Notes under the pieces: model-generated
Seen by the model: only the letters and a program-made list of their open reading frames with translations
The model's database searches: none
What the model was told of the DNA's origin: nothing
Source of the DNA: a virus
Virus record (IMG/VR): IMGVR_UViG_3300029915_000057
Span: 1-44,098 of that record
Direction: 5' to 3' (one strand)
Length of the DNA: 44,098 nt
Shown here: positions 25,259 to 39,912 of the stretch, piece after piece
Position numbering within the stretch: the first letter of the stretch is position 1
Layout of the letters: every line of letters starts with the position of its first letter
Position numbers and translations under genes: made by a program

Positions 25259-25285
25259 TCCCGACTCACAGTCAGGAACCATCAG

Positions 25286-25314
25286 ACCCACCGGTGCAAG
25301 CCGGTGGGTTTTTT
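25286..25314 (+). terminator. rho-independent terminator of the late operon
   Basis: A perfect 9-bp GC-rich stem (ACCCACCGG 25286-25294 / CCGGTGGGT 25301-25309) with a 6-base loop is followed by a T-run (25309-25314). It lies 28 bases after the last + strand stop and separates the two convergent gene blocks. On the - strand there is no T-run, so it should work mainly rightward. Confidence 0.88.
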
Positions 25315-25320
25315 GTTGCC

Positions 25321-28119: not shown

Positions 28120-28662
28120 CTAATAAGCCTCCGCCGCCTCGATCCACGCCTCCCGCAACCGATCCACTTCCTCTTGTGTCATCTTGGGAGGTTCGGGCGG
28201 TAGGAAGTGGGCGCGTAGGCCAGCCACGATCCAGTTTTTGGTCATGGTCGGCACGTTTCCACGCGTTCCGACGTGCTTGCACACCGCCTCCACCGTCGCG
28301 ATGTGATGGCCAGCGGGCGTGAAGTCGGGGGATGGGGTCTCGGACGTGGCTGCTTGTGACCCGCCATCGTTTAAGCCAGCGTGAGGCGCACCTATCTGGC
28401 TCCGAGTTTCAGTCTCCCCTCCCGCTGCATCACGGGCGGCGCGGAGGTTGCTGATGATGGCCTCTTTCGTCGTTTGGCCGTAGCCGAATTTCGGCGTTCC
28501 CTCGGCCTGTTTGATCGCTTCCTCCCAAACCTCCCGCCTCGCAGCATCGAGATCGGTGGCGGGGACGTAGCGGATGGCGTTGGGGAAGCGATACCTATAT
28601 GTTTGATGCCAGAGAAGGCCGCTGGACCTCTCCATCCACACTTCCTTCGGGTGATCGGTCAT
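28120..28662 (-). CDS. hypothetical phage protein
   Basis: 180 residues, ATG overlapping the upstream TGA (ATGA). N-terminal part (SSGLLWHQTYRYRFPNAIRY; AARREVWEEAIKQAEGTPKF) is compact, the middle (about 85-115) is disordered, and the C-terminal half ends with a helix (MTQEEVDRLREAWIEAAEAY). The sequence continues in frame after its TAG stop with another good helical stretch, see the small entry at 28012-28104. Not recognised. Confidence 0.6.
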   Translation of the reverse strand: MTDHPKEVWMERSSGLLWHQTYRYRFPNAIRYVPATDLDAARREVWEEAIKQAEGTPKFGYGQTTKEAIISNLRAARDAAGGETETRSQIGAPHAGLNDGGSQAATSETPSPDFTPAGHHIATVEAVCKHVGTRGNVPTMTKNWIVAGLRAHFLPPEPPKMTQEEVDRLREAWIEAAEAY

Positions 28663-29414
28663 GCCGTTGGCTCCAGGTCTGCGTCAGACAGGGTGCACAT
28701 GCGCTTGACCAGATCGACCGCAGAGGCCTGCAGGGCGGTCGTGGTCGGTTTGAGTGCGTCCCGTGCGGCGGCCCGTGCGACGACCCGTGCGGCGGCCCGT
28801 GCGGCGTCCCATGCGACGTCCCCTGCGACGTCGCATGCGACGTCCCCTGCGACGTCCCCTGCGACGACCCGTGCGGCGGCCAATGCGGCGGCCCATGCGG
28901 CGTCCCGTGCGACGTCCCCTGCGACGTCCCCTGCGACGTCCCCTGCGGCGACCCCTGCGGCGGCCGAATCTTTGCGGATGGCCTGTAGTGTCGGCATGAG
29001 CGACGGGACTTTGGCGAAGTCGGTGATCTCGGGGAAAGCCTCAAGCGTCTCGGCTTGTTTCGTCAGTCCGGCGAGCCTAAGCCATGCGGGCGTCTGAACG
29101 CGGATAAACCAGTCTGCGGCCATGTTCGCCCGTCGCGCCTCAAGGGCTTTGCTTCCGCGTGTTCCGACGACGAGGGGGATCAGCGGCTTGAGAAGTTCGG
29201 TGCGCTCGTCGTCGGGGAGCGCATCGTTCCAACTCACCAGAAACTCCGTGATCACCGGACAGGCGCAGGCGGGATGATCCGACCATATCTCGCCCGCAAC
29301 ATAGGCGACGGCTTCCATGACGCAGGCGCCATCCGTAATCCCACGATGGCCTCCTGATTTCAGGGTTTTGATCCGCGCGAGGCGCTTGGGATCAATCGTC
29401 AGGGTCTCGGTCAT
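28659..29414 (-). CDS. protein with Ala-rich tandem-repeat domain
   Basis: 251 residues from the ATG at 29414. Residues 1-150 are a globular part (ITDGACVMEAVAYVAGEIWS; CPVITEFLVSWNDALPDDER). Residues about 152-220 are a four-residue tandem repeat (AGDVAGDVAGDV alternating with ARAAA), encoded by 12-bp DNA units. A helical C-terminus follows. Because the DNA unit is a multiple of three, unit gain or loss would keep the frame. The C-terminal overlap with the next gene is ATGA. Function unknown. Confidence 0.62.
   Translation of the reverse strand: MTETLTIDPKRLARIKTLKSGGHRGITDGACVMEAVAYVAGEIWSDHPACACPVITEFLVSWNDALPDDERTELLKPLIPLVVGTRGSKALEARRANMAADWFIRVQTPAWLRLAGLTKQAETLEAFPEITDFAKVPSLMPTLQAIRKDSAAAGVAAGDVAGDVAGDVARDAAWAAALAAARVVAGDVAGDVACDVAGDVAWDAARAAARVVARAAARDALKPTTTALQASAVDLVKRMCTLSDADLEPTA
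28757..28960 (-). repeat. 17 imperfect tandem copies of a 12-bp unit
   Basis: On the + strand the unit is CGTCCCCTGCGA with variants at four or five positions (CGGCCCGTGCGG and others). Seventeen complete units fill 204 bp and part of another follows. The run encodes the Ala-rich tetrapeptide repeat. Copy number may vary between relatives. Confidence 0.85.
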
Positions 29415-29538
29415 GGGATCTCCGGGTCTGGTGGGGTGTTGGGGGCGTTTTCGTTGGCGAGGTCCAGCAGCACATCCGCATGGCATTCGGCAAGCCGAAA
29501 TAGCAACCGCCCGTCTCTACGTAGAGCGCCGCGATCAT
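29392..29538 (-). pseudogene. remnant of a phage gene beginning MIAALYVETGG
   Basis: The ATG at 29538 overlaps the preceding TGA. The first 18 residues (MIAALYVETGGCYFGLPN) match the start of a phage protein family that I remember as continuing VDPWDE...RDARLYAGP. Here the frame then runs into AMRMCCWTSPTKTP and stops at 29392 inside the next gene. The remainder of the family is missing, so this looks like a deletion remnant. A different frame in the same stretch (29411-29506, TTG start) gives 31 good residues (FRLAECHADVLLDLANENAP) whose TGA overlaps the next ATG and may be a real small gene. Confidence 0.45.
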
Positions 29539-30290: not shown

Positions 30291-30715
30291 CACAGGTAAA
30301 TAACGTCTGGCGCCACAACCGGCGCGTGGATGGGGGCGACGGACCAGATCTCTTCGATCGGCATGTCGCGGTTTGCGGACCAGTCCTTGAGTTCGCCCTT
30401 TGAAAAGGCGGCCACGTGAGTCGGGGCGAACACCAATGCATCTGGGTGATCTTCCCATGCGATGGGGTCCGTGATCACTGAACTCATCTTCGGTGACCTT
30501 AGGCCAAGGGCAGCGCTGACTGCGCCGCCCTTCCAAACGTGGGTGACGCGGTAGCCAAGGGCGGCCAGGGCTGTCCGGGTCTCGGACGGCTTGGTTCCCT
30601 CCCGCATCCGGCGACCGGCCTTGGCCAGAGCGTCGTGGCAGGTTTCGTAGCTGAACCCGGTCACGTTGGCCAGAGCCGTCACGGCGCAGTCGTCTGTTTC
30701 GACGTCCCGGAGCAT
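30290..30715 (-). CDS. C39/papain-like putative cysteine peptidase
   Basis: 141 residues from the ATG at 30715 (TGATG overlap with the upstream stop). DDCAVTALANVTGFSYETCH has the nucleophile-type Cys10 followed by a helix. PTHVAAF gives His100, and Asp111 follows in KDWSANRD. That order (Cys, His, Asp) and the GRRMREGTKPSETRTALAAL stretch fit C39/papain-fold proteins found in phages. Activity is not certain and some family members are only structural homologues. Could target a host protein. Confidence 0.55.
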   Translation of the reverse strand: MLRDVETDDCAVTALANVTGFSYETCHDALAKAGRRMREGTKPSETRTALAALGYRVTHVWKGGAVSAALGLRSPKMSSVITDPIAWEDHPDALVFAPTHVAAFSKGELKDWSANRDMPIEEIWSVAPIHAPVVAPDVIYL

Positions 30716-31773
30716 CAGCCGATCCTCCGGACGGACGCCGAATTCTCGGCCACTTGCTTGTTCAGGGAGACGCGGTCGCCCGCTGCGCCCCCGGCGTCGT
30801 AGGCTCCGTGATCGCGGGGCTTGTCCTGCCGGCCAGAGCGGTAGCGGTAAGCCCGCGCGCGGCCAGCCTTGCGCGCCTTCTTGGGAGCGAGCTCCTCCAT
30901 GGCGGAGTAAACACCGCTGCGGACGGTTCCGCCCAAGCGGGACTCGATCTCCTTGTCGGTCAGGCCGAAGGAGGCCAGGATCGGCTCCGCTGCCGCCTTG
31001 GCGATCTGTTCCGCGATCTCCTTGTCGGTGATCTTGGCTTCCATCACCGCGTCGTAAACCGCTGCCCACGCCTTTGATTGAGCGTTGGCGCAGTAGTTGG
31101 CGCGGGCCGTGGTGCCGGCAGGCAGGCCACGACGGAAGTCCTCGTTGGCGCAACGCTCGGCCTCAGCGAAGTCCTCCATGACCACGGCCAAGGCGTTCGA
31201 CGAAGAGGCCCTTGCCTCCTCAGCGGCTGCTTTTTGCGCCGCCATCGCTTCGCGGTGCTGGCGGTTGATGCGCGTCTGCAACCGGGCCGCCGCGCCTTCC
31301 TTGAAGCTCATGGCCTTGCGACTCATCAGCTGCAGGTGATCGCCACCGACAAACTCGCGGGCGAGACGTTCAATTGTCGAAGTGAGATAATCGAACGTCT
31401 CGGTCACGGCAACGACGTTTTCTTCACGCCCGATCACTTCGTAGCCGACTTGCTTAGTCTTGTTGCCGCTCCAGGCGGTTTTTCTGAAGGTCATGCAGAA
31501 GTTGGTGGTGGCGACGGTGGCCATCAGGCTGCGCTGCCATTCATACATGGCCTTGCCCTTGGCCTCGCCCTTGAGGCGCTGAACCAGGGACCGGGCCGAC
31601 GTGTCGGCGGCCTCAGCCTGAGCGATCGTGATGTTGTGTTCGAGCATGATGCGCTGCGCATGGGCGGCGGCCAGCTCGATCTCGTTTTCCGTCGCGTTGG
31701 GGTCGCGGCTGAGGTTCAGCAGCTTCTTGACTTTCGCGACGAGCGCGGGGCTGATGGCGGTTTGGGTTTGCAA
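30715..31773 (-). CDS. DUF2786-domain protein
   Basis: 352 residues from a TTG, with AAGGAGAA eight bases upstream. Residues about 11-55 (VKKLLNLSRDPNATENEIEL; AAHAQRIMLEHNITIAQAE) are the DUF2786 pattern. A central alpha/beta part follows (ATVATTNFCMTFRKTAW; VIGREENVVAVTETFDYLTS), the layout usually called DUF7168, then a long helical and basic C-terminal part. It opens the replication half, is preceded by the shared leader, and its C-terminus overlaps the peptidase-like gene. Biological role unknown; a DNA- or RNA-linked one is a guess. Confidence 0.72.
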   Translation of the reverse strand: MQTQTAISPALVAKVKKLLNLSRDPNATENEIELAAAHAQRIMLEHNITIAQAEAADTSARSLVQRLKGEAKGKAMYEWQRSLMATVATTNFCMTFRKTAWSGNKTKQVGYEVIGREENVVAVTETFDYLTSTIERLAREFVGGDHLQLMSRKAMSFKEGAAARLQTRINRQHREAMAAQKAAAEEARASSSNALAVVMEDFAEAERCANEDFRRGLPAGTTARANYCANAQSKAWAAVYDAVMEAKITDKEIAEQIAKAAAEPILASFGLTDKEIESRLGGTVRSGVYSAMEELAPKKARKAGRARAYRYRSGRQDKPRDHGAYDAGGAAGDRVSLNKQVAENSASVRRIG

Positions 31774-31792: not shown

Positions 31793-31809
31793 CGGGCGTG
31801 ATAGGCCCG
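31793..31809 (-). promoter_or_regulatory. leader hairpin upstream of the DUF2786 gene
   Basis: On the - strand CGGGC, a 7-base loop and GCCCG form a small hairpin, then CATCGAAGGAGA supplies the ribosome-binding site. The same block occurs before the gene starting at 34401 and in altered form before the gene starting at 34058. Confidence 0.55.
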
Positions 31810-31822
31810 AACTTTCTATGGG

Positions 31823-31863
31823 CCACATCGACAAAAAAAGAAAGTGATTTTTTGTCGATGTGG
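31823..31863 (-). terminator. 16-bp perfect hairpin between helicase and DUF2786 genes
   Basis: CCACATCGACAAAAAA (31823-31838) and its exact complement TTTTTTGTCGATGTGG (31848-31863) flank a 9-base loop. The stem has an AT-rich top and GC-richer base. No T-run follows on the - strand. It may act as a terminator or as an attenuator between the two genes. It is one of few gaps near 100 bp on this strand. Confidence 0.55.
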
Positions 31864-31869
31864 CGATTT

Positions 31870-33321
31870 TTATTCCAGCCACTCCCGCCAGCCGTCTCCG
31901 TGGACGGTGGCCGATAGGTCGATTTTCTTCCGCAGGTTGGAGATGAACTTGCCCTCGATGGTCCCCGGCGCGCGCAGGTCGACATAGAGAACGGAGTCAG
32001 CGCGACCGACCTTCTGCGTGCGCTCTTCGCTCTGCGTGCGGAAGTCCAGGTTGTCGGTGTTGGAATAGTACACCACCATGGAGGCGACGGACCACTCCCG
32101 CCCCCGGCCACCGGCTGAGGCTGTAGCCACCATCCACCGGCAGGCGGCCTCCGTCTTGAAGCGGCGCTCCTCCGCTTCGCGCTCATTGACGTTGCCGCCC
32201 CAGAACTGCGCCACAGAATCTCCGCCAAATGCTTCGCGCAATTTGGCGGAGATTCTGTGGATGTCCGCCCCGTAGGCGCACCAGATGATGGCCTTGCCGT
32301 CGAAGTCGGACAACAGGTCGACGAGAGCCGCCGTCCTGTTCTCGGGTATCTCGTGCCAGTTACCCTCCTCGTCGCGCACATGGCCGCAGAGGATCTGATG
32401 CATGCGGAGTATCTGGGCAATCACCACTGTCGCGGTCACATAGCTCTCGGAAGAGGAGAGCTTTGTGGTGGCGAAGGCTTTCATCTCCGCGTAGAGTCTC
32501 TCCTGTTCCTTGGTCAGTTCGACGTCGCGGTAGGAGTACATCTTGGGCGGGAGGTCGTAGCAGTCTTCCAGTAGGCAGCGGAACACGTGCGGGGCCATCT
32601 TTGCCCGCAGGTCCTCCAGGTCCCTGAAGCCGGTGACTATCGGAACGGCGCGGCCCCCGAACACCTGCTGGCGCATGACGGCGTAGCGCGCGCGGAAGGC
32701 GTAGAAGGAGCGGTAGCCCAGGAAGCGCCAGTCCAGGAACTCGAACTGAGCGTAGAGGTCGAGGGGCGACTTTGGGTCTGGCAGGCCGGAGAGTATGCGC
32801 CGGTAGTCGGCGTGCTGTGCTACGTGGCCGTTGATGAACTTGGTGCGCTGGGAGGAGGGGTTCTTGATGATCACGCTTTCGTCGATGGCCAGCATCGAGC
32901 GTCGGAGCTTCAAGAAGGCCAAGATGACTTCCCGGGCTTCCTTGATTGAGCTCAGGGATTCGACGTTGATCAGAAGTATGCGGGGGGCGGTGGTGTCGGC
33001 TAGGAAGGCGGCCAGAGCGCGCTTCTTGGCCGCGCTTGCGCCGGACTCCCAGAGGAAGACCTTGGCCCGCCGTCGGAGGTCCACGGACAGGTGCTCTGCT
33101 ATCGCCCCCAGCCACGTGCGGTAAACGCCACCGGGGGCGACGACGCAAAGGTCCTGACATAGACCCGCCAGCTCCAGGCGACCGAAGTCGTCTAGAACGA
33201 CCTTGGTCTTTCCGGTCCGCATCGCCATGAACAAGGCGAAGGCCTCTTGCCCTTCAAGACGGGCCAGGGCCTCCGCCTGCTTCGCCCTCGGCTTGTAGGG
33301 CGGCGCGTAGGCGTCAGGCAC
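31870..33321 (-). CDS. SNF2-type DNA helicase
   Basis: 483 residues from a GTG (33321). Motif I is MAMRTGKTK (about 32-40), motif II is DESVIIKN (147-154, DEAD/DEXH type with the SNF2-like IKN), motif III is RRILSGLP, and motif VI near the C-terminus is QSEERTQKVGR. It resembles single-chain SNF2 helicases of phages that translocate on double-stranded DNA. The gene is in the replication block and its start overlaps the upstream small winged-helix gene by eight bases. A perfect 20-bp inverted repeat lies within it (32211-32260). Confidence 0.85.
   Translation of the reverse strand: MPDAYAPPYKPRAKQAEALARLEGQEAFALFMAMRTGKTKVVLDDFGRLELAGLCQDLCVVAPGGVYRTWLGAIAEHLSVDLRRRAKVFLWESGASAAKKRALAAFLADTTAPRILLINVESLSSIKEAREVILAFLKLRRSMLAIDESVIIKNPSSQRTKFINGHVAQHADYRRILSGLPDPKSPLDLYAQFEFLDWRFLGYRSFYAFRARYAVMRQQVFGGRAVPIVTGFRDLEDLRAKMAPHVFRCLLEDCYDLPPKMYSYRDVELTKEQERLYAEMKAFATTKLSSSESYVTATVVIAQILRMHQILCGHVRDEEGNWHEIPENRTAALVDLLSDFDGKAIIWCAYGADIHRISAKLREAFGGDSVAQFWGGNVNEREAEERRFKTEAACRWMVATASAGGRGREWSVASMVVYYSNTDNLDFRTQSEERTQKVGRADSVLYVDLRAPGTIEGKFISNLRKKIDLSATVHGDGWREWLE
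32211..32260. repeat. perfect 20-bp inverted repeat inside helicase gene
   Basis: CCACAGAATCTCCGCCAAAT and its exact reverse complement are separated by 10 bases. Both arms are coding (HRISAKL and AFGGDSV). A chance origin is very unlikely at this length. Confidence 0.9.
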
Positions 33322-34419: not shown

Positions 34420-34436
34420 CGGGCGTGATTGGCCCG
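34420..34436 (-). promoter_or_regulatory. leader hairpin upstream of the 34401 start
   Basis: CGGGC/GCCCG hairpin with a 7-base loop, followed by CATCAAAGGAGACACAAC. Upstream (34446-34478) lies an AT-rich stretch with AAAAAGAAAG related to that near 31833-31844. The two intergenic regions appear to be copies, possibly carrying promoters; no clear -35/-10 pair is assigned. Confidence 0.5.
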
Positions 34437-34480
34437 AGCTCTTTGTGCGCCAGTTGGTCAGAAAAAGAAAGCATTATTTT

Positions 34481-34897
34481 TCACAGCAGTGATTTTATTT
34501 CTGGCCATGGCCATTTGGCCGGGTTGCCGTTGGCCTTCAGTAGGGGAGGGGCGGCCAACAAGCCCTTCTCAGCCACGAACCGGACTTCATGCGCGGCGAA
34601 CAGCCAAAGGGACTCCCAGTCCACGGCCAGGGCTGGGTAAGGGCGGCCCTTGCGGCGCACGGCCAACAGAACCTTGCCCCCGGCCCGCTGGCGGCGCTCC
34701 GCCCAGCCTATTTGGTTAGGGCTGATGTCCACGGCCCAGGCGTCGGACTTCTTGAGCTCAATCCATCCCTCACGGCCCTCGCCCGCGTAGTTGAGGTCAG
34801 GGATGCCCAGTCCGGTGCCTCCGGTCTCGATCCGCTGGAAGTGGAAGTTGGGCAGGTGAGTCTGGAACAGGCCTGCCAGTCCGCCGTCGGTGGTCAT
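34481..34897 (-). CDS. PD-(D/E)XK-type nuclease, VRR-NUC-like
   Basis: 138 residues. GTGLGIPDLNYAGEGREGWI followed by ELKK gives the PD...ELK core of a PD-(D/E)XK nuclease, in the size range of VRR-NUC domains. QIGWAERRQRAGGKVLLAVR continues that fold. Such proteins in phages often act as Holliday-junction or flap endonucleases. ATG at 34897 overlaps the polymerase stop (ATGA). The AT-rich gap to 34402 lies after it. Confidence 0.7.
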   Translation of the reverse strand: MTTDGGLAGLFQTHLPNFHFQRIETGGTGLGIPDLNYAGEGREGWIELKKSDAWAVDISPNQIGWAERRQRAGGKVLLAVRRKGRPYPALAVDWESLWLFAAHEVRFVAEKGLLAAPPLLKANGNPAKWPWPEIKSLL

Positions 34898-37752
34898 GGG
34901 AGATTGCCAAGAAAGCGAACGGCTTTCACGTCCACCATCCGAAAACTAGCAGGACACGGCCCTTTTATAGCAAACAGGGACTTTCCGGCCTTCCCTTCAA
35001 GTATCTTCGGCGCCAGCCGTTCGTATTGAAAGCGATTGACCTTACAGAAGATCTCCCCGGTGTCGTCCTCAAAGAACAAGTTTATTGACTGGTCCGGTCC
35101 GGTTACTCGCTTCCCTCCGCGTTTCTGAACATTCACCTCTTCGTTTTCTGCTCTGGGGCTGACTTTCTTGAGTAAGCCGATTATCACCACATCGCCCCTG
35201 ATGCCCGGTTGCACGTCGACGATGGGCGTTGGTTCGGTGTAGATGTTGATGGCCGCTAGGTCCGGGTGAAGTGCCTTCACCGCGTCGGCGATTGGGAAGA
35301 GTGAGTCCACTTCAGTCTTGGCGTTCGCCAGCTGCTTGGCCAGGGCCGGACGCAATGGGAGGCCGGTACGGCGGCTCTCCATCACCTCCCTCACCTTGGC
35401 GGGTCCTATGCCCTTAATCGCTGTCAGAGGCCCAACGAGAATCTTTCGTCCGTCCCGCTCGCCAACCGTCCACCGATATTCGCTGCGTTCAGGATCGACC
35501 GGCACGTAGTCGATGCCTTCCGCCGCCATCTCTCTGAGCATTGCAAGCTGCTTCCCAGGATCAGATTCAGCATCCAGCGTAGCTGCCGCAAACTCCACCG
35601 GCCAGTGTGCTTTCAAATAACAACACCAATACGAAATTATACCATAAGCAACAGAGTGACTTTTATTAAAAGCCCATGAACCCATAGAGTCGATCTGTTT
35701 CCAGATGGCCGTTGCTTGTTCTTTACTCAAACCATTGGCCTGAGCGCCTTCCATGAACTGCTCCTCGAACCGCCCAAAGGCCTCGTCCCCTGAGCTATTG
35801 GACATCAACTTGCGGATCTTGGCCGTGTCGGCCCATGAGAAGTTTCCGATCTCGCGCGTTATGCGCATGACGGTTTCCTGATAGACCACCACGCCGAAGG
35901 TCTCTTTGGTGAGCTCGGTGAGCAGGGGATGGATGTCGTTGACGTTGACCTCCCCCTGCTTGCCCCGCACCCAAGCTCCTGCGCCGCCACTGGCCAACGG
36001 CCCAGGACGACACAGGGCGGACATGGCGATGACGTCGTCAAGGTGGGTGAACTGGATCTGGCTGCTCAGGGACCGAAGCGACGTCCCAGTGAACTGAAAG
36101 ATGCCGCTGTAATAGCGCTTGTTGAGGACCTCGAACGCCAGAGGGTCGTCCAAGGGAATGCCATCAAACCACGAGGACCCAATAGGCACGCCGATGAGTT
36201 CCTGCAGCCGCTCGAAGATGCTGAGCTGGGTCAGGCCCAAGGCGTCGATCTTGAGCAGGTTCAGCGCCTCGGCATCTTTCTTATCGCACCAAGCGGCGCG
36301 GGTGCGGGCGTCCATGGCGACGTATTCCGTGATCGGCTCGTCGGTCAGCAGCAACCCGGCTGCGTGCTGAGACGCCACGTTTGGGTGACCCTCCATGCGG
36401 GCGGATATTCCGAGTTCCGGAAACTCGCGCATGATTGTTCGCCCCGCTTCGGTCTCCATAAGGGTGTCTTCGAGGCTGTTCATCAGACGTGAGTCGCCGG
36501 AGGACCGCTCGATGATGCTGTCCGCCAGCTTGTCCGTCTTCCAGGGCGGGATGCGCAGGGCATTGCCGGCCTGCTTGAGGGCAGAACGCGCCTTGAACAT
36601 GCCGACGGTCCCGAGCCGCGCCACGCGGTCCTTGCCGTATTTCTTTTCGGCATACTCGAATACTAAGTGCCTTTTAGTGTCCGAAAAATCAACATCAATG
36701 TCAGGTGGGTCAGGCCTGTTAAAATCTAGGAACCTGGCGAAGATGAGCCCATATGGAATTGGGTCAATAGCTGTTATCGAAAGTAAATAACAGACCAAAG
36801 AACCAGCCGCAGACCCGCGTGCGGGCCCAACGACCATGTTTTTTCTTGCCCAACTGACTATATCCGACAAAACGTAGAAGTAATCCTCGAAGTCTTTACT
36901 TGCAATCATATCGAGCTCTGTCGTCAGCCGCTCAGCATAAATCGGATCAGTCAGGTCTACGCCAAGTTTTTGCGCGCCGGCAACGCACATATTTAGGAGG
37001 GTGTCTGGCCTTTCTGGCTTTATCAACTTGCCTTTTCGCATGACGGCATTGCACTGCTCCAAGGCGTGATCGCGGTTGGCGAAGGCTTGGTCGATGAACA
37101 CGGCGTCCAGGCCCATGACGTCCGTGAACCACTCACGGAGCTCCGCGTCCGTCATGACGTGCTGCGGGTAGCTCTGCGTGCTGGCCCGCCAGCCAAGGGC
37201 GACGCGGTAGAGTTCTAGGTCGCTCTCGTTGGGGTAGGTGTTGCAGCTGGAGGCGATGAAACGGTAGCCTTGCTCCTTGGCCTGCCGAATGAGGCCCTTT
37301 GGCGTGGCCGGGGAAAGGGCGATGAAGAAGTCAGGGCCGCAGTCGGGGGCCGGTGGAAGGTGGTTGAGCTGGACCCTTTCCCCCGCTATAGCAATCAGAC
37401 CGTCCAAATTGACGGCCTGATGGTAAGTGAGGGAGGGGTCCTTCCCCGGATTGCGCGTAGAGCGGTAAATTATGTCGTGGAGCGGACGCAAGGCGTCCTT
37501 GGCTAAGAAGGCCCACCAATCTGGGGACGGCTTCTTCTCGCCCAGCGCCGGGACGCAGGCGACTTCGCAACCGTAAGCAGGCCTGATTCCGGCCTGCTTA
37601 CAAGCCTTAGTCCATCTGACGAACCCAAACGTGCTCATGCGGTCTGTGATCGGTGCCACCGGCCAGCCGCATTCCTTGACCCGGTCCATGACGTCCGGCA
37701 GGTGGCCGATGGCGTGGCGGAAGCTGTAGCCTGTGTGGAGTCGCGCTGTCAC
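34894..37752 (-). CDS. DnaE-type DNA polymerase III alpha subunit with degenerate PHP domain
   Basis: 952 residues from a GTG that overlaps the previous TGA (GTGA). The catalytic motif DIDVDF (Asp351, Asp353) and the third Asp (KIDALGL, Asp503) are present, with VVGPARGSAAGSLVCYLL before. Residues 1-230 correspond to the PHP domain, but the metal-binding motifs are changed: LHTGYS instead of LHxHSxYS, ITDR instead of TDH, and no TNDxHY motif. A separate exonuclease gene sits two genes upstream. The C-terminus (about 830-950) contains an OB-like region (VQPGIRGDVVIIGLLKKVSP). It is probably the replicative polymerase of this phage. Confidence 0.9.
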   Translation of the reverse strand: MTARLHTGYSFRHAIGHLPDVMDRVKECGWPVAPITDRMSTFGFVRWTKACKQAGIRPAYGCEVACVPALGEKKPSPDWWAFLAKDALRPLHDIIYRSTRNPGKDPSLTYHQAVNLDGLIAIAGERVQLNHLPPAPDCGPDFFIALSPATPKGLIRQAKEQGYRFIASSCNTYPNESDLELYRVALGWRASTQSYPQHVMTDAELREWFTDVMGLDAVFIDQAFANRDHALEQCNAVMRKGKLIKPERPDTLLNMCVAGAQKLGVDLTDPIYAERLTTELDMIASKDFEDYFYVLSDIVSWARKNMVVGPARGSAAGSLVCYLLSITAIDPIPYGLIFARFLDFNRPDPPDIDVDFSDTKRHLVFEYAEKKYGKDRVARLGTVGMFKARSALKQAGNALRIPPWKTDKLADSIIERSSGDSRLMNSLEDTLMETEAGRTIMREFPELGISARMEGHPNVASQHAAGLLLTDEPITEYVAMDARTRAAWCDKKDAEALNLLKIDALGLTQLSIFERLQELIGVPIGSSWFDGIPLDDPLAFEVLNKRYYSGIFQFTGTSLRSLSSQIQFTHLDDVIAMSALCRPGPLASGGAGAWVRGKQGEVNVNDIHPLLTELTKETFGVVVYQETVMRITREIGNFSWADTAKIRKLMSNSSGDEAFGRFEEQFMEGAQANGLSKEQATAIWKQIDSMGSWAFNKSHSVAYGIISYWCCYLKAHWPVEFAAATLDAESDPGKQLAMLREMAAEGIDYVPVDPERSEYRWTVGERDGRKILVGPLTAIKGIGPAKVREVMESRRTGLPLRPALAKQLANAKTEVDSLFPIADAVKALHPDLAAINIYTEPTPIVDVQPGIRGDVVIIGLLKKVSPRAENEEVNVQKRGGKRVTGPDQSINLFFEDDTGEIFCKVNRFQYERLAPKILEGKAGKSLFAIKGPCPASFRMVDVKAVRFLGNLP

Positions 37753-38549
37753 GTCGACCTCGCCTTGTTCCAGGGAATGCGACCTTTGCGTCTTTCATAG
37801 TCCCTCAGCTCAGCAGCCGTCTTTGGTCTTTGTTTTCGAGCGGCAACGGCTTTTAACTGAGCTTGGGTTTTTGCATTCTCGATCAGGCCCTTATTCCAAG
37901 GAGTTCTGCCCTTCATTGCTTCTGATATATTGCTTCTTTGTTCTGCCGTCCTTCTGTTTCCCAGAGAGTTCCCGGGCTTGCCTGTCATCCTTTCATGATA
38001 AGCCTTCTCCGCTTTAGTCTTTTCTCGTCCTCTTTTCGCTTCGTAAGCCGCCTTCTGTTTCTCTGTCAATCCTCTAAGCCGCCTAAAATTTAAAGCCAAG
38101 ATTCCCGCCTCTGTAAGAGGGACTTTGCTGCCTTTATTCCAGGGCGTCCGTCCGATTCCCGCCTTCCTGACGGCCTCTATGACATGAGGAAGTTGCGGCA
38201 ACCCTTTTCTCGGGGACGGCCTTCCTTTCGCTGCTTTGCTTAGTTTGGCCCTGACCTCTTCTGTATGCTCAACGCGACCAGCAATCAAAGAGCAATTATA
38301 AGACGGGCGAAACGCAGTGAAGCATATCTGCTCGTAAAGTAAAAGGTCCTTCTCTCGGCAAATTATGAGCACCGACAAGCTTGTTTTCCCTTCGTTCTTG
38401 TCGTATGCCCTTTGCAACTTTACATTCCCGTGGCGTCCGCGCTTCAATGCCGGAGTGTGTTGCCGATCAAACCTTGTCTCGATGTTCTTGCTGGAGCCTA
38501 TGTAGCAGTTTCCGCTTGGAAATGACATCTTGTAAACTCCGCAAGTCAC
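37749..38549 (-). CDS. GIY-YIG homing endonuclease
   Basis: 266 residues from a GTG, one base after the exonuclease stop. GVYKMSFPSGNCYIGSS is the GIY-YIG motif with Tyr6, then IETRFDRQHTPAL and LLYEQ with the expected Glu. Behind the catalytic part, GRTPWNKG and related NUMOD-type motifs repeat three times (about 133, 218, 257) as DNA-binding beads. Base composition is more AT-rich than in the neighbours. It is a free-standing mobile gene placed between exonuclease and polymerase. Confidence 0.85.
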   Translation of the reverse strand: MTCGVYKMSFPSGNCYIGSSKNIETRFDRQHTPALKRGRHGNVKLQRAYDKNEGKTSLSVLIICREKDLLLYEQICFTAFRPSYNCSLIAGRVEHTEEVRAKLSKAAKGRPSPRKGLPQLPHVIEAVRKAGIGRTPWNKGSKVPLTEAGILALNFRRLRGLTEKQKAAYEAKRGREKTKAEKAYHERMTGKPGNSLGNRRTAEQRSNISEAMKGRTPWNKGLIENAKTQAQLKAVAARKQRPKTAAELRDYERRKGRIPWNKARST

Positions 38550-38550
38550 T

Positions 38551-39087
38551 TCAAATGTCCCCGCGCCGAAACAATTCCTTGCAAATTTCCACCAAGGCCA
38601 TCACGTCGTTCTTGGCCCGGTGAGCCGCTGGGAATCCTTCCCCAAATAGCTCCGTATGCAAAGCGGTAAGACTCAGTCTGTGGCCCTTCATATGTATGGT
38701 CTGCTCCACAGTGCATAGCCGCCGCTTTGGCCAGATGAGGGGGACGCCAACGCGCTTAAAGCAAAGTGACGTAACTTCAACGTCAAATGATGCATTGTGG
38801 GCAAGAACAGCCGGGGCCGCTTCAATCGCCGCCTTGATCGTTGGTGCCACTTCCAGCATGGAAGGCGCGGTTTCTAGGTCTTCGTTCGTCAGGCCGGTGA
38901 TGCGTGTGATCTCCTCCGAGATCGGTCGCCGGGGTTTGACGAGCGTGTCGACTTCGGATGAAACCTCGCCGGTCTCTAGATCCACCAAGCATCCATAGAA
39001 CTCGATCATGTCCGGAAGCAGTTCGTCCTTGACTGTTGCGTTCTCTATCAGGCCGGACGTTTCCAGGTCGAACACGAAAATCTTCAT
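38551..39087 (-). CDS. DnaQ-type 3'-5' exonuclease
   Basis: 178 residues. ExoI: FDLETSG with Asp7 and Glu9. ExoII: LAHNASFD with Asp102. ExoIII: HRAKNDVMAL with His156 and Asp161, the DEDDh arrangement. TRITGLTNEDL is the usual linker motif. It probably supplies proofreading to the DnaE-type polymerase whose PHP domain lacks the metal motifs. The start overlaps the upstream HNH gene stop by four bases (ATGA). Confidence 0.88.
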   Translation of the reverse strand: MKIFVFDLETSGLIENATVKDELLPDMIEFYGCLVDLETGEVSSEVDTLVKPRRPISEEITRITGLTNEDLETAPSMLEVAPTIKAAIEAAPAVLAHNASFDVEVTSLCFKRVGVPLIWPKRRLCTVEQTIHMKGHRLSLTALHTELFGEGFPAAHRAKNDVMALVEICKELFRRGDI

Positions 39088-39605
39088 GCCTTACGCTCTC
39101 GTCGGGCGGCTCTGGAAGCGTTCGCTTTTGCTATTGATTCAGGCCTTTGTTTTCTTCCAAGCATCGGATGGCCGCCATTTTTGAATTGATTCTTTGCCCT
39201 TCTTTTGACAAAAGCGGCGCGGGCTTCCGGCGTCATGCTGTCCCAAAACCTCTTGACGCCCTTGGCCCCGGCTTTCGATGCTTCCAAGCAAAGCATCCTG
39301 GCCCTTGGGTGTCTTTCCATAAAATCACGTCGGTTGTCTTTTTTAGTTCCGGGCACGAGATGTTCCCAATTTATGCATCCTCTGATATCACAAGTGTGTC
39401 TGAGGATTTTTCCGACGGGGATTGGTCCGATGAACTCTTCATAAGAAGCGTGATGCGCCGCCACAGAAACTCGGTTCCACTCGGCTGTGCCATATTTTTC
39501 GGGACGACCCCTCCAAATCCAACAGCCATTTTTGTCTATGGCAATTCTCTTGAGGAGATACTCTTTCCTTGTCGGCTCCTTTGTCTTTGGGTGAAGACCC
39601 TCCAT
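39084..39605 (-). CDS. HNH homing endonuclease
   Basis: 173 residues from the ATG at 39605 with AAGGA upstream; the frame is open further but upstream residues do not look like protein. GKILRHTCDIRGCINWEHLV followed by PGTKKDNRRD is the HNH pattern with two Cys. The region is more AT-rich than surrounding genes, as for the GIY-YIG gene nearby. Basic C-terminal helix (KNQFKNGGHPMLGRKQRPES). Probably cuts an intron-less allele in related phages. Confidence 0.8.
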   Translation of the reverse strand: MEGLHPKTKEPTRKEYLLKRIAIDKNGCWIWRGRPEKYGTAEWNRVSVAAHHASYEEFIGPIPVGKILRHTCDIRGCINWEHLVPGTKKDNRRDFMERHPRARMLCLEASKAGAKGVKRFWDSMTPEARAAFVKRRAKNQFKNGGHPMLGRKQRPESIAKANASRAARRERKA

Positions 39606-39675
39606 CAAGCTTCCTTCCAAGGTCAATCTTTGATACCGACTTAAAAGGCCAAAAAGTTGCCCTTGGAAAGGAATT

Positions 39676-39912
39676 TCACGCGCGGAAAGACCGATCCGGG
39701 GAGAAGTTGCTCCGCTGCCTGAGGTTGACCTGCTCCAGCCGTTCAACCTCAGCGGCCAGCCGGGCCGCATCTTTGGTTGTCGATCGCGCCGCCAGCCACC
39801 AGTCTTGCCATTGGCTCGGGGCGATGCCCGGTGGTCGTTGGATTGAGACGCCCTCAAGGGTGACGGCGTCTCGGTCGATGTCAATCCTGAACAGGGGCCG
39901 TTCGTTGTTCAT
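39676..39912 (-). CDS. 78-residue small protein
   Basis: ATG at 39912, overlapping the Nmad1-like gene by 32 bases. FRIDIDRDAVTLEGVSIQRP is followed by QWQDWWLAARSTTKDAARLA and a coiled-coil-like helix (AEVERLEQVNLRQRSNFS). There is a 70-bp gap before the HNH gene. The function is unknown. Confidence 0.55.
   Translation of the reverse strand: MNNERPLFRIDIDRDAVTLEGVSIQRPPGIAPSQWQDWWLAARSTTKDAARLAAEVERLEQVNLRQRSNFSPDRSFRA

Follow-up and report, generated by a model that had tools for sequence, protein, structure and literature searches.

A perfect 20-bp inverted repeat in the helicase gene of a metagenomic phage, probably a scar of template switching

Early work on Ripley's quasipalindrome model was reportedly carried out in phage T4. 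The model is cited in the accessible portion of PMC6357072, where mutations at quasipalindromes are said to 'universally perfect the palindromic sequence', and the standard Escherichia coli reporter, according to the available sections of that paper and of PMC7202029, is an 18-bp quasipalindrome in a coding gene. Homogenisation of arms in coding genes of Saccharomyces cerevisiae, with arms of 7-16 bp, is described in the available part of PMC8604942, and the creation of a perfect stem by a single switch event in that of PMC8794818. Palindromes in coding sequence whose two arms each specify conserved residues, with template switching as one possible cause, appear in the excerpted text of PMC6649704, and perfect repeats are mainly intergenic, viruses included, in the excerpted text of PMC13155455. 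Among the open-licence papers listed for template switching or quasipalindromes together with phage, none was a survey of palindromes in phage coding sequence.

The window, that is, the whole stretch of DNA analysed here, comprises 44,098 bases and is an IMG/VR-type virus record, a metagenome-derived contig carrying the contractile-tail genes for tail sheath and baseplate wedge. With named phages it shares protein similarity only, at <60% identity, and no DNA similarity. A terminator-like hairpin followed by a T-run (25275-25320) marks the junction of its plus-strand left half and minus-strand right half. The helicase (Table 1) matches the Pfam families SNF2-rel_dom and Helicase_C, the latter over residues 331-440, and also PHROG 62, DNA helicase; of the solved sequences, 1z63, a snf2/rad54-family helicase, matches it best.

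Table 1. Positions of the repeats, hairpin and genes discussed for the window
Feature	Position	Strand	Sequence	Basis or remark
SNF2-type helicase CDS, 483 aa, containing the main repeat	31870-33321	minus		ORF, Pfam, PHROG
Main repeat, 5' arm (mRNA)	32241-32260	minus	ATTTGGCGGAGATTCTGTGG	most of codons 354-361 (IHRISAKL)
Main repeat, loop, 10 bases	32231-32240	minus	GCTTCGCGCA	
Main repeat, 3' arm (mRNA)	32211-32230	minus	CCACAGAATCTCCGCCAAAT	most of codons 364-371 (AFGGDSVA)
Second repeat, arm in conserved, repeated leader/promoter-like element	31822-31838	.		probable template arm
Second repeat, arm in ~16 extra bases between helicase stop and element	31848-31864	.		probable inverted copy
Imperfect hairpin, 16/20 paired, loop 7, in next gene (30715-31773)	31359-31405	minus		possible older event of the same kind
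DNA polymerase gene	34894-37752			named in the hot-spot reading
Separately encoded DNA polymerase exonuclease subunit	38551-39087			named in the hot-spot reading

A perfect 20-bp inverted repeat, placed near the C-terminal lobe and judged far beyond chance in the preliminary description, was borne out, at precisely the coordinates given there. The arms of this main repeat are complementary at 20/20 positions, and the residues that it encodes, 354-371, lie inside the Helicase_C match. It is the longest perfect inverted repeat in the window (loop 3-60) and the only coding one there of >11 bp. Base composition predicts 4.6e-6 repeats with arms of at least 20 in the window (loops 3-60). With the protein fixed and codons drawn by phage usage, a mean of 10.6 of the 20 positions are paired and the probability of 20/20 is 4.8e-8; with residues drawn from the family profile, the mean falls to 6.2/20 and the probability to 3.7e-11. 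The maximum reached in 200,000 simulated synonymous recodings of the site was 19 paired positions, never 20. The arms pair codon to codon, first positions with third and second with second. In the predicted model of the helicase (mean pLDDT 86.3), part of helix 352-365 comes from the 5' arm; the 3' arm supplies its end, a loop and the start of strand 370-373.

Both arms encode residues that are family-like by sequence, with family-profile scores of 1.71 and 1.79 bits that are ordinary for the helicase gene. The suspicion that AFGGDSV had been altered relative to homologues was not upheld, the 3' arm having the score of 1.79 bits and relatives reading YGDDSVA or FGPDSVA. The residue count at the site is the same in relatives L016 (64% protein identity) and L017 and L018 (59%), and since the alignment is free of gaps, nothing has been inserted there. 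A codon alignment of 32 relatives was reduced to 31 by exclusion of the frameshifted L026, and in these 31 the site is paired at 2-10 of 20 positions (17 comparable positions in L019), so that the main repeat is private to this lineage. The nearest relative, L016, is paired at 10/20, versus the 10.6 predicted from amino acids alone. No relative with >64% protein identity was found, so an imperfect ancestor of the main repeat was not seen.

In 171 homologous helicase loci, a count that includes duplicates, no perfect repeat is longer than one of 12 bp with a 15-base loop in L026 (~50% identity), which overlaps the site in another pairing register. The gene that carries it (L026:5001-6445) is a related helicase gene frameshifted near residue 105. 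Over 165 non-redundant genes, repeats of at least 8 bp were not concentrated at the site (4/70, versus 2.6 expected), ruling out a hairpin there common to the family, and those of at least 10 bp numbered 1/6 at the site versus 0.23 expected. Across 175 loci, which total 1.53 Mb with duplicates counted, a single perfect repeat of at least 17 bp with a loop of no more than 20 was found outside L014 and L015, themselves stretches of the window; it measures 23 bp. It lies, with a 10-base loop, at L164:1956-2011, on an Eggerthellaceae genome contig.

Comparison with relatives had been expected to tell which arm of the main repeat is ancestral. With relatives of at most 64% protein identity the comparison gave two answers, the codons making the 3' arm the copy and the amino acids the 5' arm. 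Codon adaptation in the 3' arm is the lowest among all 8-codon windows of the helicase gene (fraction 0.002), and GC3 there is 0.38 versus 0.84; for these reasons codon evidence suggests that this arm was copied from the 5' arm, whose codon adaptation is ordinary (fraction 0.197). The reverse is suggested by three other signals. The amino-acid identity of the 5' arm to nine close relatives is 0.28 (0.43 among the relatives themselves), and that of the 3' arm 0.51 (0.58 among themselves). For six of the nine, nucleotide identity of the 5' arm falls in the lowest 11.3% of windows. Among 5,804 antisense 6-mers from 14 phage genes, the fit of the real peptide was matched by none for the 3' arm and by five for the 5' arm. 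Given this absence and the lower identity of the 5' arm, a single blind 20-base copy is an unlikely source of the 3' arm, and simple blind copying of one arm onto the other is not favoured for it. The simplest reconciliation would be that the arms of a pre-existing quasipalindrome were homogenised over several steps or in both directions.

Just past the helicase stop codon and before the gene that follows, ~350 bp from the main repeat, there is a second perfect inverted repeat (31822-31864), of 17 bp with a loop of 9. It overlaps a 61-base element (31793-31853) that is repeated at 34420-34480 (75%) and is recognisable after the L016 helicase, less clearly after that of L018; the element-borne arm falls within the shared part. 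By direct count on the sequences, the CTTTC/TTTTC box stands 25 nt from the stop codon here, compared with 9 nt in both the 34420 copy and L016, which miss the ~16 bases holding the stop-proximal arm. This outer arm therefore falls in added sequence and has the look of an inverted copy, which is what a template switch leaves behind. As a canonical terminator on the helicase strand the repeat was rejected, the T-run being inside the stem; on the plus strand, GATTTTTATT comes directly after the stem.

The 61-base element itself precedes two minus-strand genes and comprises a T-rich tract, a TGGC...ATA-like stretch and a CGGGC-N7-GCCCG leader hairpin ahead of the ribosome-binding site. A T-rich stretch like the element's also follows the L016 helicase. 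The element looks like a phage promoter with its leader; a simple sigma-70 scan did not call it.

Hairpins with at least 16/20 paired positions number 8 in the window, where 20 Markov sequences averaged 0.65, and their density is 0.181 per kb, against 0.039 per kb across 80 loci from related phages. Half of the eight lie at 31.3-33.5 kb, and two belong to a 12-base tandem array. That array (28757-28965, ~17 copies) is inside a minus-strand gene (28659-29486) and encodes a stretch rich in AGDVAGDVARDAA-like repeats. For the imperfect hairpin in the gene next to the helicase, one arm is conserved and the other not in the sole homologue (L017, 44%), and with this single homologue the polarity is weak. 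The conserved arm is the lower-coordinate one in both this hairpin and the second repeat; for the main repeat, amino-acid evidence makes the lower-coordinate arm the conserved one and codon evidence does not. GC skew, considered for a shared replication-origin signal, showed nothing sharp at 31-33 kb. That the interval 31.3-33.5 kb is a hot spot where the phage's own replication machinery repeatedly makes or perfects hairpins by strand-biased template switching, even in the helicase gene, is a doubtful extension of these counts, in which the DNA polymerase and its exonuclease subunit would be the genes concerned. Beside the polymerase gene, two endonuclease-like genes (37749-38549 and 39084-39884; homing endonuclease family PHROG 314 and HNH endonuclease) flank the exonuclease-subunit gene, and their GC3, 0.53 and 0.54, is below that of the other genes measured.

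Template switching, one of the origins proposed in the preliminary description, is the best supported of its suggestions. The main repeat is likely to be a mutational scar, a quasipalindrome made perfect by short-range template switching, as argued by the improbable 20/20 pairing, the absence of an indel, the perfect form being absent from relatives, the family-like protein and the adjacent 17-bp repeat with one arm conserved and the other in extra sequence. Two stretches of the helicase gene would already have paired imperfectly; the polymerase replicating the phage would then have changed template over a stretch of up to ~20 bases, and with the nascent strand folded back or crossed to the sister strand, one arm would have been copied as its own reverse complement before return to the original template. 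Damage to the protein would have been avoided for three reasons: the arms pair codon to codon, much of this pairing suits the protein, and only events that leave it functional would survive. The low codon adaptation and GC3 of the 3' arm, which a copy would show, and the imperfect hairpin in the gene next to the helicase also speak for this reading; the conflicting polarity signals, the failure to find a relative above 64% protein identity and a pairing in L016 that does not exceed the amino-acid prediction speak against it. The switch itself, whether there was one event or several, and the template arm of the main repeat are what we infer; the best reading of the region is that template switching occurred in it at least twice within ~450 bp.

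The main rival to template switching is a selected RNA hairpin, in which the 20-22 bp stem would be an RNase III-like cleavage site, a brake on ribosome or polymerase, or a stability element tuning helicase expression. The coding-strand 80-nt fold at the main repeat is very stable (-45.7 kcal/mol, z = -6.9, with 0/200 shuffles equally stable), and dual selection would give both the family-like residues in two perfectly paired arms and their unusual codons (AGA, AAA, TTG; GCA, TTT, GGA, GAT, TCT). Against it stand the 12-bp maximum among the homologous loci and the lack of enrichment at the site, a local fold energy that shows no consistent departure in 15 relatives (fractions 0.05 to 0.82), the absence of any Rfam RNA family in the window at gathering thresholds and of a T-run downstream of the stem. 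The structured mRNA element once suggested is, as a conserved feature, unsupported despite the stable predicted fold, since relatives lack the hairpin; a selected RNA role is possible, conservation gives it no support, and overall it is unlikely.

Considerably less probable is that one arm is an artefact of assembly or amplification, made by fold-back chimerism in the metagenome library. The record is metagenome-derived, and inverted chimeras are known from strand-displacement amplification (available part of PMC9484634), but both arms are in frame with family-like residues and no indel, the gene continues on either side, and a spurious arm would not be expected to read FGGDSV, a fit that none of the antisense 6-mers equalled. 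It is very improbable that chance and codon choice sufficed, with ordinary substitutions completing the pairing in a protein nearly self-complementary here: the protein alone does favour pairing, as the mean under synonymous recoding shows, yet the probability of the full pairing at the site is that given above and another perfect repeat occurs within 450 bp. An inserted mobile element, palindromic like REP or the Rickettsia palindromic element, would accord with the position within a gene whose reading frame is kept; this reading has practically no chance of being correct, being ruled out by the gap-free alignment with relatives, which shows no extra residues. The arm, moreover, matches only itself on both strands of the record, and its exact 18-base core had zero matches in viral_contigs.

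The main repeat is real and improbable, and its cause is probably ordinary; what is unusual about it is its length and the presence of a second perfect repeat nearby. Read as the product of template switching, it is a clean, long palindrome in a phage replication gene with no visible damage to the protein, and the second repeat is an adjacent example whose template arm can be named. Mutation rather than function can be the source of hairpins in phage genes, which calls for caution before strong coding hairpins are called regulatory RNA. If the cluster is a real hot spot, it would serve as a naturally occurring assay of how a phage replisome switches template.

In the quasipalindrome mutations of E. 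coli (lacZ reporters, the thyA hot spot and the Ripley model), as far as the accessible text of the sources goes, a short-spaced inverted repeat is likewise made perfect. There, the event was observed in the laboratory, whereas here the imperfect ancestor is out of view and the signals of direction conflict. The coding genes of S. cerevisiae, in the available part of PMC8604942, likewise acquired perfect repeats via template switching with few amino-acid changes; in that system the arms measure 7-16 bp and the parental state is known, compared with 20 bp and no close relative for the phage. The mitochondrial coding palindromes of Nematomorpha, according to the excerpted text of PMC6649704, reach up to 284 bp, are many per genome and in some cases are common to species, unlike the single 20-bp coding repeat of the phage, which is absent from its relatives. 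As in those palindromes, conserved residues are encoded in both arms, and under the scheme given in that text the main repeat is of phase 2, the second codon positions being paired with each other.
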